36,203 nucleotides of DNA from Candidatus Rifleibacteriota bacterium (lineage in GTDB: Bacteria; Muiribacteriota; Ozemobacteria; Ozemobacterales; Ozemobacteraceae). The stretch's first letter is position 1. Every line of letters starts with the position of its first letter. Made by a program: the position numbers and the translations under genes. The notes below the pieces were generated by a model. The model saw only the letters and a list, made by a program, of their open reading frames with translations. It was not told the DNA's origin and searched no databases. Where the stretch lies: assembly GCA_012520995.1 (NCBI GenBank), contig JAAYNI010000059.1:1-36203 (forward strand), read 5' to 3'. Shown here in pieces: positions 6,442-26,011 of this stretch.

Positions 6442-7704
6442 ATGATAAACAAAAACAAAAAACTTGGTCTAACTCTGTTAGCCCTGTTTCTTGTTGTGTC
6501 TCAGTTCACATTTGCCGATACGCGGGCATCGATCAGAGATCTGAAACACAAATACGAAACTAAACTTGCTGAGTATCAGTCCGCAATCAGAGCTGCCAAT
6601 CAAAGGGCGGCTGCTCAGATACAAAAAGAACTTAACGATGCGAAAGCAGCCTATGAAAAAGCTAAGGCGGCCATTACTCCTTCGAAAAAAGCCCAGGGAG
6701 CGATTCAGAAAACTACAGAAGCTGCTGTTGATACAGTAGGAGATGTTTTTGCTCAAGGAACAATTTTCGACGGTCTTTTTGACGGTATTCCCATACCTGG
6801 CAGTGGCAATACTCTTATTGGTTTTGCTAGCCAGAAGGCTCCAAAAATAGACGGCGACAATTATTGCGGTCAGTTTGCCACATCTATGGCCTTGAGATAT
6901 TATAAAATCAATCACGACCCGCAAGAAGTATACAGACAGGCTAATCCTGCAGGTATTTTCACTTCGCCTTCGGCTCTCGTAGAGTCTCTTAATATGAACG
7001 GTCTTGATGCTAATGTTAAGCACAATGCCGGTCTTGAAGACATTGCTAAGAAAATTGACAGCAAAGCGCCTGTAATAGTTCTCGTGGGAACAGAGAGCGG
7101 TTCTCCTCACTGGGTAGCTATTCATAGTTATCAGCGCAATTATAAAGGCGAAATAATTTCTGTTACTATGAGAGACTCTTATTGGGGTTACAATAGAAGC
7201 TATACTATGAAGGCTGATGAGTTCCAAGAAAAATGGGCAAATCCGCTCGGTACCGCTTGGTATTCTGGAGCAGCTGGATATAAAAATCTGATGGTTGATA
7301 TCAAGGGCAAAAAGACTCCTGACAGCAGTCCTTCACTGTTCGGCTTCAACTTCAACTATGCTGCTGAAGAAACTATGGCAGGCGGTATTAATGATGCTGT
7401 TACTGGATGGAAACGCAAATCTCCAACCCAAATGTTGAGCGGTGCAGTTAAAACTGTCGTCGGACTTCCTGGAGTTGCTGTCAAGGTTGCAGGCAATTAT
7501 CTTAATAAAGGTTCTGATAGCCTTATTCAAGGCGGTATTGAACGCTGGAATAACGGCAACAAAGTCGGCGGCGCTTTAAGAGTAGCTGTTGGCGGTCTAG
7601 GCAAAGGTGTAAGCTTTGTGTCCAATACCGTAGCCAATACTTGGGGTGCTGGCGTTAACATCATAGGAAACGGTATTAAGAAACTAGGTTATATTTTTAA
7701 ATAA
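6442..7704 (+). CDS. Secreted C39-like cysteine peptidase, paralogue 1
   Basis: This 420-aa protein has a clear signal peptide (MINKNKKLGL then TLLALFLVVSQFTFA, cleavage near residue 25). A Lys/Ala-rich predicted coiled coil covers about residues 30-80. A papain-like peptidase C39-type domain covers about 135-290: Cys142 in DNYCGQFATSM, His223 in SPHWVAIHSY and Asp245 in MRDSYWGY form the expected triad. The last 120 residues are rich in Gly, Asn and Lys and end in GNGIKKLGYIFK. It is probably exported to the periplasm or outside. GGAGG at 6430-6434 precedes the ATG. Its neighbour at 7866 has the same peptidase domain and tail but a different linker, so the two are tandem duplicates. Whether it cleaves peptides or cell-wall crosslinks is unknown. 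Confidence 0.85.
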   Translation: MINKNKKLGLTLLALFLVVSQFTFADTRASIRDLKHKYETKLAEYQSAIRAANQRAAAQIQKELNDAKAAYEKAKAAITPSKKAQGAIQKTTEAAVDTVGDVFAQGTIFDGLFDGIPIPGSGNTLIGFASQKAPKIDGDNYCGQFATSMALRYYKINHDPQEVYRQANPAGIFTSPSALVESLNMNGLDANVKHNAGLEDIAKKIDSKAPVIVLVGTESGSPHWVAIHSYQRNYKGEIISVTMRDSYWGYNRSYTMKADEFQEKWANPLGTAWYSGAAGYKNLMVDIKGKKTPDSSPSLFGFNFNYAAEETMAGGINDAVTGWKRKSPTQMLSGAVKTVVGLPGVAVKVAGNYLNKGSDSLIQGGIERWNNGNKVGGALRVAVGGLGKGVSFVSNTVANTWGAGVNIIGNGIKKLGYIFK

Positions 7705-7865: not shown

Positions 7866-9224
7866 GTGAAAAGATTTTTGACATTCCTTTTTGCCGTCCT
7901 TTTTCTTATTTTTTTGCCGATCGCAGCTACAGCCAATGATCCGTTTGGCGGAGTAGTAATTAGCGAAGTTGAGCAGGCAGGCGAAACCGAATCAGTTGAA
8001 ATTACTGCTGATATCATTGAATCGGAGTCAGATACCTTAGTGGAGTTAGAAGAACCTCCTTTTTCTCCACTGCCTTCAATGGAGATAAACTATGAAGGTG
8101 AACAAAGTGTCTCTGAAGATGCTTCTCAGCAAAAAGATCAGAACAAACAGGAAGATAAAACTGCTAAACCTGTAGCAGCTTCTTCAGAAAAAACACAGGA
8201 AACACTGACAAGCGGAGTTGGAACTGCTGTTAACGCTGGCGGCGATGTTGTGTCTAAAGCTCCTGCTGAAGCTCCATCTGAGAATACTTCAGAAGAAAAT
8301 AACGGTTCGAAAATTATTGATAAAATATCTGGACAAAAAGCTCCGGATATTGATGGTGACAATTATTGCGGTCAGTATGCTGCTTCTATGATTCTTGAGT
8401 ATTATGGCATAGAACATAAAGCCCAAGATATTTATAAACAAGCTAACCCTGGCGGAATTTTTACCGCTCCTTCCACTCTTCTTGACTCACTCAGGAAGAA
8501 TGGAATTGATTCAAGTATTAAACACAATGCCAGTCTTGAGGATATAGCTAAAAAAATAGATAATGGCACGCCTGTTATAGTGCTTGCGAATGCTGTAAAT
8601 TTTGACAAGCCTGGCACTGATTCGCCTCACTGGATTACTATTCACGGCTATGAGAGAGACGAAAACGGCAAGATAGTTTCTGTTACAATGAGAGACTCGT
8701 ATTGGGGCTATTACAGAAACCACACAATGGATGCCGATGAGTTCATGAAAAGATGGAACAAACCTTGCGGTGACAGTGTTTGGGCTAACTTTGCCGGCTA
8801 TAAAAACCTAATGATCGACATCAATGGAACCAAAAAGCCATCTAAGACTTCTTCCCTCTTTGGTTTTAACCCGCATACTGCAGCTGAGGAAGCTATGGCT
8901 GGCGGCATCAATGACTTCTGGACAGGCTGGAAAAACAAATCTCCAACACAATTATTGGGCGGAACTGTAAAAATTATAGGCGGTTTGCCTGGACTCATAC
9001 CTAAATGTATTGGCAACCAGATAAACAACGCTTCAGATAAACTTCTCAATAGCGGTGTTGATAACTGGAAGAATGGCAATAAGCTTGTTGGCGGTTTCCA
9101 ATGTGCTACAGGCGGTCTTGGCAAAGCAACAGGGTCTGTGTTCAATACAGTTGGTAATGCAATGAGTTCTGCCGCCAATGTTCTTGGCAATGGTATCAAA
9201 AAAATCGGTGACCTTTTTAAATAA
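7866..9224 (+). CDS. Secreted C39-like cysteine peptidase, paralogue 2
   Basis: This 452-aa protein has a signal peptide (MKRFLTFLFA then VLFLIFLPIAATA, cleavage near residue 23). An acidic Glu/Ser/Thr-rich linker of about 130 residues, probably disordered, follows. The C39-type domain spans about 158-320, with Cys168 in DNYCGQYAASM, His255 in SPHWITIHGY and Asp277 in MRDSYWGYY. The C-terminal 125 residues align throughout with paralogue 1: a shared MAGGIND, KSPTQ, GLPG, NGNK, GGLGK and GNGIKK series. The N-terminal linkers do not match. A TATAAT at 7800-7805 and the terminators on both sides suggest its own transcript. Start: GTG at 7866, after a GAGGCG site. The linker's acidic, repeat-like make-up suggests it works outside the membrane. 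Confidence 0.85.
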   Translation: MKRFLTFLFAVLFLIFLPIAATANDPFGGVVISEVEQAGETESVEITADIIESESDTLVELEEPPFSPLPSMEINYEGEQSVSEDASQQKDQNKQEDKTAKPVAASSEKTQETLTSGVGTAVNAGGDVVSKAPAEAPSENTSEENNGSKIIDKISGQKAPDIDGDNYCGQYAASMILEYYGIEHKAQDIYKQANPGGIFTAPSTLLDSLRKNGIDSSIKHNASLEDIAKKIDNGTPVIVLANAVNFDKPGTDSPHWITIHGYERDENGKIVSVTMRDSYWGYYRNHTMDADEFMKRWNKPCGDSVWANFAGYKNLMIDINGTKKPSKTSSLFGFNPHTAAEEAMAGGINDFWTGWKNKSPTQLLGGTVKIIGGLPGLIPKCIGNQINNASDKLLNSGVDNWKNGNKLVGGFQCATGGLGKATGSVFNTVGNAMSSAANVLGNGIKKIGDLFK

Positions 9225-24675: not shown

Positions 24676-25352
24676 AAGCAAAACTTTCATCCGTTCTCGG
24701 AGATGTGATTCTTGCAATTGTTACAGCAACCTTTGCACTCTTTTGTTTTTCCCTTTTTATTACTCCTGTGGGCTCATTTCTGAAAAAGGCTGCTGCGGAA
24801 TCTTTGACTGATTATCATGGAGAACAAAGGGCAAAAAAAAGTTTTGCACAAAAATTGCAGGCTGCTGCTATAAAACCTGAAGAGTTTTTTCCAGAGGTTT
24901 TTGTGTCTAAGAGCAAATGCAAAATGTTTGTAGCTTCTGGAGGCCAGATTGTAGTTACTTATCCTGTTTGGATAGGAGAATCACCTCTAGGCGATAAAAA
25001 GACTGCTTCAGACAGAAAAACTCCGGAAGGGGAGTTTTATATCTGTCATAAAGAAAAACCTTATAAATATCATTTGTTTTTGGGCTTTAGCTATCCATCG
25101 GCTACTCATGCAAAAAGAGCTTCATTCAATCAAATAATTTCCAATGCAGAAGAAGCTGCTATTTTAGAGGCTTGGCAGAAACAGGAGTGTATTCCCTCGG
25201 CTACTCCTTTGGGAGGTAATCTTGGTTTACACGGTTTTGGCGGAGTTGCTGAAGATTGGACTCAAGATGGTTCTATAGCTATGTACAATCGAGATATAGA
25301 GGAGCTTTATTGGAATATTCCCTTAAGAACGCCTTTGATAATCAGTGATTAA
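24672..25352 (+). CDS. L,D-transpeptidase (YkuD)-like protein with Ser at the usual catalytic Cys
   Basis: This 226-aa protein has an N-terminal membrane segment or signal anchor (residues about 9-32, ILAIVTATFALFCFSLFI). A YkuD domain of the murein L,D-transpeptidase type (COG3034-like) follows from about residue 75. Typical elements are PVWIGESPLGDKKTASDRKT, TPEGEFYIC, GLHGFGG (His187) and DWTQDGSIAMYNRDIEELY. In active relatives that last motif reads DWTxGCIAxxNxDIEEL; here the Cys position is Ser201 (codon TCT, 25272-25274), with an extra residue before Gly. Catalysis by the normal Cys mechanism would be lost, so it may bind peptidoglycan or use Ser. It overlaps the VTT gene by ATGA; both probably act at the envelope. 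Confidence 0.85.
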   Translation: MKAKLSSVLGDVILAIVTATFALFCFSLFITPVGSFLKKAAAESLTDYHGEQRAKKSFAQKLQAAAIKPEEFFPEVFVSKSKCKMFVASGGQIVVTYPVWIGESPLGDKKTASDRKTPEGEFYICHKEKPYKYHLFLGFSYPSATHAKRASFNQIISNAEEAAILEAWQKQECIPSATPLGGNLGLHGFGGVAEDWTQDGSIAMYNRDIEELYWNIPLRTPLIISD

Positions 25353-25365
25353 TGTTCTAAAGAAA

Positions 25366-25407
25366 AATATAGGTTTGTTTCAGATGAAACAAACCTATAT
25401 TTTTTTG
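25366..25407. terminator. Bidirectional intrinsic terminator
   Basis: The arms AATATAGGTTTGTTTC and GAAACAAACCTATATT pair perfectly over 16 bases around the loop AGAT, with TTTTTTT after and AGAAAAA before. It ends the L,D-transpeptidase operon on the plus strand and, on the minus strand, lies 23 bases past the stop of the small peptide B gene, so it can serve both. Confidence 0.9.
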
Positions 25408-25429
25408 GGGGTCTTTAAAGTAAAAGTGA

Positions 25430-25537
25430 TTATAAAATTGTGTTGTTGTTTGTTGTATCAGAAATGCCTAGTGAAGTTTCTTTTTCCAACTTGTCTTTAT
25501 ATTTATTAAAAAATACTAATATGCTCATATCAAACAT
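25430..25537 (-). CDS. Small peptide B, 35 aa, MFD-M-SILVFF family
   Basis: The frame starts ATG-TTT-GAT-ATG-AGC on the minus strand and ends at TAA (25430-25432). The peptide opens MFDMSILVFF, continues with a charged stretch (NKYKDKLEKETSLG) and ends in a polar TTNNNTIL tail. AAAGGA lies 7 bases before the ATG. Its first ten residues match those of peptide A, 45 bases upstream, at nine of ten positions, and six of those nine codons differ by a synonymous change. That pattern is strong evidence of protein-level selection. The intrinsic terminator at 25366-25407 closes the unit. No known family recognised; a secreted or membrane-active peptide, a signal or a leader-type precursor are possibilities. 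Confidence 0.65.
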   Translation of the reverse strand: MFDMSILVFFNKYKDKLEKETSLGISDTTNNNTIL

Positions 25538-25582
25538 GTTAAAGTCCTTTCTGCAGCTGTTCCGCTATATTGGAAGCTGTTG

Positions 25583-25693
25583 TTAGCGCTGCATGCTAGC
25601 AGGAGAACCTGCAATTTCGTCTGACAGATTTGTGAGGCTGTCGGTGTCTTTTAACCACATTCTGAAGAAAACTAGTATACTTACGTCAAACAT
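25583..25693 (-). CDS. Small peptide A, 36 aa, MFD-V-SILVFF family
   Basis: On the minus strand the frame runs from the ATG at 25693 to TAA at 25583-25585. The peptide opens MFDVSILVFF, then RMWLKDTDSLTNLSDEIAG, and ends SPASMQR. AAAGGAG lies 6 bases before the ATG, an excellent ribosome binding site. Together with peptide B it forms a two-gene unit closed by a terminator. The hydrophobic N-terminal motif is shared, while the remaining 25 residues differ apart from a rough charged-then-polar trend. The gene is divergent from the Smr-domain gene (ATG at 25739), so its promoter must lie in 25694-25760; I see no clear -35/-10 pair there. Function unknown. Confidence 0.68.
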   Translation of the reverse strand: MFDVSILVFFRMWLKDTDSLTNLSDEIAGSPASMQR

Positions 25694-25738
25694 ACCGTTC
25701 TCCTTTCTTTTACTTTTAACTATTACTAAGCAAAATTT

Positions 25739-26011
25739 ATGCCAATTTTAAAAATGCCAATAAATGGGGTTTTGGATCTTCATACTTTTTTGCCCAAAGA
25801 GGTTAAGTTTTTACTTGAAGATTATATTGACGAATGCTTGGCGAAAGGCATAACGGACTTGCGGATAATACATGGAAAGGGCAGGGGAGATTTTCGAAGA
25901 ACAGTTCATAGTTTTTTGTCTAAATCAAATAAAGTGCAGCAATTTCAAATTGCACCGCCAGAGGCTGGTCACTGGGGTGCTACTTTGGTTAAATTGAAGG
26001 TGCCTAAGTAG
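25739..26011 (+). CDS. Smr-domain protein
   Basis: This 90-aa protein consists only of an Smr (small MutS-related) domain. Visible motifs are LDLHTFLPKEV near residue 12 (family DLHGxxxxEA), the LRIIHGKGRGDFR core near 42-54, and the end motif AGHWGATLVKL (family GGxGATxVxL). Stand-alone Smr proteins are RNA or DNA endonucleases that act, for example, on stalled ribosomes or recombination intermediates. The first motif lacks the common Gly after DLH (here DLHTF). The start ATG at 25739 is the first in frame. The ribosome binding site is weak. The domain starts about eight residues in, so no large N-terminal part is missing. Confidence 0.85.
   Translation: MPILKMPINGVLDLHTFLPKEVKFLLEDYIDECLAKGITDLRIIHGKGRGDFRRTVHSFLSKSNKVQQFQIAPPEAGHWGATLVKLKVPK

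Follow-up and report, generated by a model that had tools for sequence, protein, structure and literature searches.

A putative sigma-54-controlled, lineage-specific micropeptide family in Candidatus Riflebacteria

Introduction

Alternative sigma factor sigma-54 (RpoN) drives the transcription of small RNAs such as Qrr and CrcZ, and pspA is a well-known unit of sigma-54 and an enhancer-binding protein. To our knowledge, no sigma-54 regulon dedicated to a micropeptide of the kind presented here has been described, and ORFs shorter than 40 amino acids are usually left unannotated. Sigma-54 has been associated with functions of the cell envelope (PMC4551910), and the Riflebacteria rank among the phyla whose genomes carry the most unknown gene families (PMC10849945). 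Our literature search returned no paper joining Riflebacteria with sigma-54 and no relevant paper with the string SILVFF.

Here we analyse two tandem ORFs in a stretch of 36,203 nucleotides of Candidatus Riflebacteria DNA (hereafter the window). Their conservation and their apparent promoter indicate that they very probably make real peptides; they are members of a previously undescribed, lineage-specific micropeptide family. An earlier note on this DNA had recognized the ORFs, their paralogy and the pattern of a conserved head with a variable tail, all of which stand, but had overlooked three features described below: a sigma-54 promoter, an enhancer site and the fact that the unit stands alone.

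Results

The gene for peptide 1 (25583..25693, minus strand, stop included) encodes 36 amino acids (MFDVSILVFFRMWLKDTDSLTNLSDEIAGSPASMQR) and has homologues as well as signs of purifying selection. It is followed after 45 bases by the gene for peptide 2 (25430..25537, minus strand), which encodes 35 amino acids (MFDMSILVFFNKYKDKLEKETSLGISDTTNNNTIL) and is a diverged tandem paralogue in which W13 is replaced by Y. Peptide 1 has the Shine-Dalgarno (SD) sequence GAAAGGAG, part of an extended element (25700..25708, minus strand; AGAAAGGAG) complementary to the 16S tail CCUCCUUUCU, and peptide 2 has the SD GAAAGGA (25545..25551, minus strand). Both frames, their spacing and the presence of a good ribosome binding site for each are thus as first read, and so are the nine shared residues of the MFD-x-SILVFF head, of which three are encoded by identical and six by synonymous codons. 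The strong terminator proposed to close the unit corresponds to a 19-bp AT-rich inverted repeat with A/T flanks (25363..25404). This hairpin is symmetrical and is probably a bidirectional terminator, which would also serve the convergent gene on the plus strand for a YkuD-type L,D-transpeptidase (PF03734) ending at 25352. The divergent neighbour encodes an Smr-domain protein (PF01713). Elsewhere in the window, two tandem paralogues (6442-7704 and 7866-9224, plus strand) encode apparently exported proteins that are alike in their tails and in a central domain (DGDNYCGQFATSMALRYY...), which by eye is perhaps a C39-like cysteine peptidase.

A protein search followed by profile searches located the peptide family in 19 of the 24 genomes that belong to the same taxonomic family (Candidatus Riflebacteria). 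Homologues with a conserved head, whose absence from relatives the earlier note had named as a possible refutation, are therefore present in most of these genomes. The same profile searches found the family in none of 16 genomes from other families of the phylum and gave no convincing homologue among about 340 further genomes; the best extra-family match (E 6.5e-4) covered only part of the head and was treated as chance among that many genomes. One 97% complete relative (G017) has no peptide, and none was found at the sigma-54 promoters of G017, G001, G019, G022 and G009 when sought there. One relative (G008, DYKG01000026.1) is titled Candidatus Methylomirabilis, yet it groups with the Riflebacteria family, and its public name is probably wrong.

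Peptides of the family are 24-53 residues long and share the head M-[FML]-D-x-S-I-[LI]-[VI]-[FW]-F-Q-R-W-L-I, in which F10 and W13 are nearly invariant, followed by a variable tail; in genus g6 the start codon may lie one codon later. Tandem pairs occur in two genera, g1 (that of the window) and g5 (G004 and G011), which together with the family head bears out the suggestion of paralogues with a conserved hydrophobic head and a variable tail. The earlier note knew of no described family with this motif, and indeed no profile in Pfam, NCBIfam or PHROG matches above its cut-off. The best NCBIfam match (E 0.061, 13.4 bits against a cut-off of 45) is at chance level, and no relative with a solved structure was found in the PDB. 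A phage or viral origin was considered and rejected, as PHROG and a viral scan gave no phage or viral relatives.

Selection acts at the level of the peptide: when the 15 opening codons of the 22 copies are compared, the mean proportion of synonymous differences (pS) is 0.87, whereas that of nonsynonymous differences (pN) is 0.30. This agrees with what the earlier note had read from the synonymous codon pattern of the two paralogues. The peptide genes of G005 and G012 differ by three synonymous and no nonsynonymous changes. The element AAAGGA is present in the SD of all 22 peptides but in only 9% of background genes. We also considered an RNA thermometer, since in several mRNAs the SD can be paired by the FF codons. 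However, synonymous recodings pair nearly alike (17 of 18 mRNAs do not exceed their recodings in the strength of SD pairing), and members with W-F mostly lack this pairing, so that there is no sign of selection on structure.

Upstream of peptide 1 lies a complete -24/-12 element of the sigma-54 type (25730..25745, minus strand; TTGGCATAAATTTTGC), contained within TGGCATAAATTTTGC, which starts 51 bases before the ATG. The exact pattern TTGGCAY-N5-TTGC has 11 sites in the 2.84-Mb genome as compared to one for the reversed control. Among the first copies with enough upstream DNA to be testable (n=18, window included), all 18 carry TGGCAY-N5-WTGC within 130 bp upstream, against 11 of 9390 control windows (0.12%). 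The genome encodes rpoN (PF04552, E 3.8e-58) and has seven matches to the sigma-54 activator domain (PF00158). We infer that both ORFs are transcribed from this one promoter. The element overlaps the annotated smr ATG (25739), where smr has no clear SD; the real start of smr may be 25754, or transcription of smr and of the peptide unit may interfere.

Further upstream, relatives carry the dyad TGNNCAA-N3-TTGNNCA, whose positions hold across several genera. At least nine of its ten fixed positions are matched within 130 bp in 14 of 18 peptide promoters, as against 3 of 60 other sigma-54 promoters of the same genomes; this contrast is the only real test of the dyad, as its consensus was derived from the peptide promoters themselves, which biases the counts towards them, and genomes that are related do not count as independent. 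In 12 of the 14 the distance from the start of the dyad to the -24 element is 79-116 bp. It is 24 in G005 and G012, an odd and doubtful place; in G004 and G011 the dyad is found at 157-159. The exact dyad combined with the promoter occurs eight times in 22 genomes and never in controls, and six of these eight sites are the peptide promoters of G002, G003, G006, G010, G016 and G021. In relatives the dyad is thus the probable site of an enhancer-binding protein, one that appears largely dedicated to the peptide. The best match in the window (25828..25844, minus strand; TCGCCAAGCATTCGTCA) lies inside the smr coding region and is a weak candidate, with 8 of 10 positions and no significance by itself (P ~0.2).

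Other sigma-54 promoters in these genomes precede genes for Flp pilin, Hsp20, ClpB, GroES, EIIA-type PTS proteins, PspA, AhpC/TSA peroxiredoxin and thioredoxin-like proteins, and many apparently secreted proteins likewise sit behind such promoters. The stress and envelope flavour of these targets fits the link between sigma-54 and envelope functions that has been published (PMC4551910). The promoters of hsp20, clpB, groES and pspA recur in several Riflebacteria (L140, L144, L148, L156, L162, L192 and L215), an apparent sigma-54 heat-shock and envelope regulon as judged from promoter sequences. Another tiny ORF (L143; G000:C97:38626-38669, minus strand; MQNEQYKDYVLVRTEKNSTLDVWVKLPPSGH, 31 amino acids) with a strong SD and no Pfam match is also located behind a sigma-54 promoter.

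Within 10 kb of the peptide genes of the 19 genomes, neighbours differ and are unrelated between genera; they include, by eye, nucleoside phosphorylase, threonine synthase, a SpoIIE-type phosphatase carrying a receiver domain, a DHH-type phosphoesterase and further genes of an ordinary kind. This variation argues that the peptide genes form a stand-alone unit. A leader peptide or attenuator was rejected, as the genes downstream are not the same from genus to genus and may be on one strand or the other. These neighbourhoods have no export or processing gene in common, which extends to 19 genomes the earlier observation that no export or modification gene adjoins the ORFs, and no signal sequence is visible by eye in the peptides. 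The suggestion of a signalling or precursor peptide accordingly found no evidence in its favour.

AlphaFold, run on 11 sequences, gives one N-terminal helix (residues 4-28) with a poorly predicted tail; over residues 1-20 the block pLDDT is 86 and 83. The helical hydrophobic moment of the head is ordinary, and a usual transmembrane helix would need a longer core, so that membrane association is a guess from hydrophobicity. Net charge ranges from -8 to +2 across the family.

In the same genomes we predict a sigma-54-driven sRNA of about 75 nt (G000:C5:29940-30050, L244; L098:1501-1610; L242-L259), located downstream of hfq in about 10 genomes and near hfq in others. Of 18 Riflebacteria genomes, 16 share a 31-nt core without any change and the remaining two have a single mismatch each; a terminator-like hairpin follows. 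The sRNA is below threshold for any Rfam family (suhB/MmgR, E 0.016). The sRNA is found in all 16 peptide-bearing and in two of five peptide-less genomes (21 family genomes), three of these five being less complete ones, and the copy in G008 carries the peptide-type dyad at 10 of 10 positions. Its seed UUCCUUUCC (UCCUUUC) is anti-SD-like and could pair as a complement with GAAAGGA in the SDs of the peptides. Predicted sRNA-SD duplexes are only slightly stronger than those with other genes (percentiles 0.07-0.76; P 0.013 when each related genome is counted by itself), and the 16S tail accounts equally well for the AAAGGA or GAAAGGAGG type of SD. For these reasons the pairing is a lead only, and the sRNA is a possible rather than a demonstrated partner of the peptide.

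Discussion

The explanation that we favour, with a probability of roughly 0.5, is that the family consists of sigma-54-controlled, stress-induced micropeptides which in relatives have a largely dedicated activator, and whose head acts at the inner face of the membrane. An enhancer-binding protein at TGNNCAA-N3-TTGNNCA would, in relatives at least, activate the sigma-54 promoter, probably in response to envelope or proteotoxic stress. Such a signal is proposed because sigma-54 promoters also precede the hsp20, clpB, groES, pspA, peroxiredoxin, thioredoxin and EIIA genes, a link that is made by the shared sigma factor and not by a shared enhancer site. The strong extended SDs would then allow quick production of short helical peptides, in which a mostly hydrophobic head (MxDxSILVFFQRWLI) is conserved and a polar tail varies. 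These peptides may bind the cytoplasmic membrane at its inner face, and the head would there engage and modulate the membrane or a fixed protein partner. A membrane-associated intracellular micropeptide responding to stress or to the state of the envelope thus seems most likely, and the promoter, enhancer site and stand-alone layout fit such a regulated peptide no less well than they fit a secreted signal.

By our own estimate secretion, toxicity and feedback through a soluble partner are together nearly as likely as this membrane reading. The nearly invariant aromatic residues F10 and W13 could also be the contact surface of a small regulatory protein, whose FFQRWLI head binds a soluble partner such as a chaperone, AAA+ protease or even the sigma-54 activator for feedback control. 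The apparently dedicated enhancer site and the presence of sigma-54 promoters before chaperone genes are in line with this, but no partner came to light and the neighbourhoods show no linkage to an activator gene, and we consider such a role rather unlikely. A short, hydrophobic and leaderless head that is predicted to be helical would also suit a membrane-active toxin resembling type I toxins or leaderless bacteriocins. However, the homologues share no antisense or immunity gene, the opposite strand of 25300-25900 has no sigma-70-like promoter in a weak scan, and the strong SD does not suggest suppressed translation. Moreover, the family is widespread and apparently vertical with no phage or viral relatives, and its range of net charge is unlike that of cationic antimicrobial peptides, which makes toxicity improbable.

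A conserved head with a variable tail, in tandem paralogues, is also what might be expected of a secreted pheromone-type peptide that reports density or stress, with the head as its recognition sequence. Against this, no transporter, protease or receptor gene is common to the surroundings of the homologues, and the conserved part is the N-terminus with the initiator methionine rather than a C-terminal mature part; we regard a secreted signal as improbable too. Finally, the RNA itself might be functional, as a sigma-54-dependent regulatory RNA or leader in which the ORFs are incidental. The window transcript folds well (z -4.3), largely through its terminator, and sigma-54-driven sRNAs such as Qrr and CrcZ exist in other bacteria. 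But residues are kept despite synonymous divergence in the 22 copies, every copy has a strong SD, SD pairing does not exceed that of recodings for 17 of 18 mRNAs, and no downstream gene is common, all of which leaves very little room for this explanation. It is also conceivable, but doubtful, that the micropeptide and the nearly invariant sRNA beside hfq belong to one enhancer-controlled circuit under a single activator. The seed UUCCUUUCC, which resembles the 16S tail, would pair with GAAAGGA in the ribosome-binding sites of the peptides and time or limit their translation.

The conserved head, the promoter and, in relatives, the control site make this family unusually testable. If the regulatory reading is true, a sigma-54 activator has been kept largely for one micropeptide, and the family offers a way into the stress signalling of a phylum that has received little study.

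Among described systems, attenuation leader peptides are similar in that a short ORF behind a promoter is followed by a hairpin, but the present unit has no conserved downstream gene and no run of a single regulatory codon, and occurs in several genomic contexts. Phenol-soluble modulins and leaderless bacteriocins are likewise short, leaderless and sometimes present in tandem copies; unlike them, the Riflebacteria peptides have no immunity or transporter gene, are conserved across genera and are not consistently cationic. With TisB, SpoVM and MgrB the family shares a length below 55 amino acids and, as predicted, a short hydrophobic helix and control by an alternative sigma factor or stress regulator, whereas it has no sequence relation to them in Pfam or NCBIfam, its hydrophobic moment is not exceptional and its promoter is of a different class. 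In contrast to the sigma-54 units of pspA, Qrr and CrcZ, the product is a micropeptide that stands alone and has no activator gene beside it. However, the architecture is that of these units, with a -24/-12 promoter in which GG and GC are 10 bp apart and, in relatives, a dyad about 90 bp upstream.
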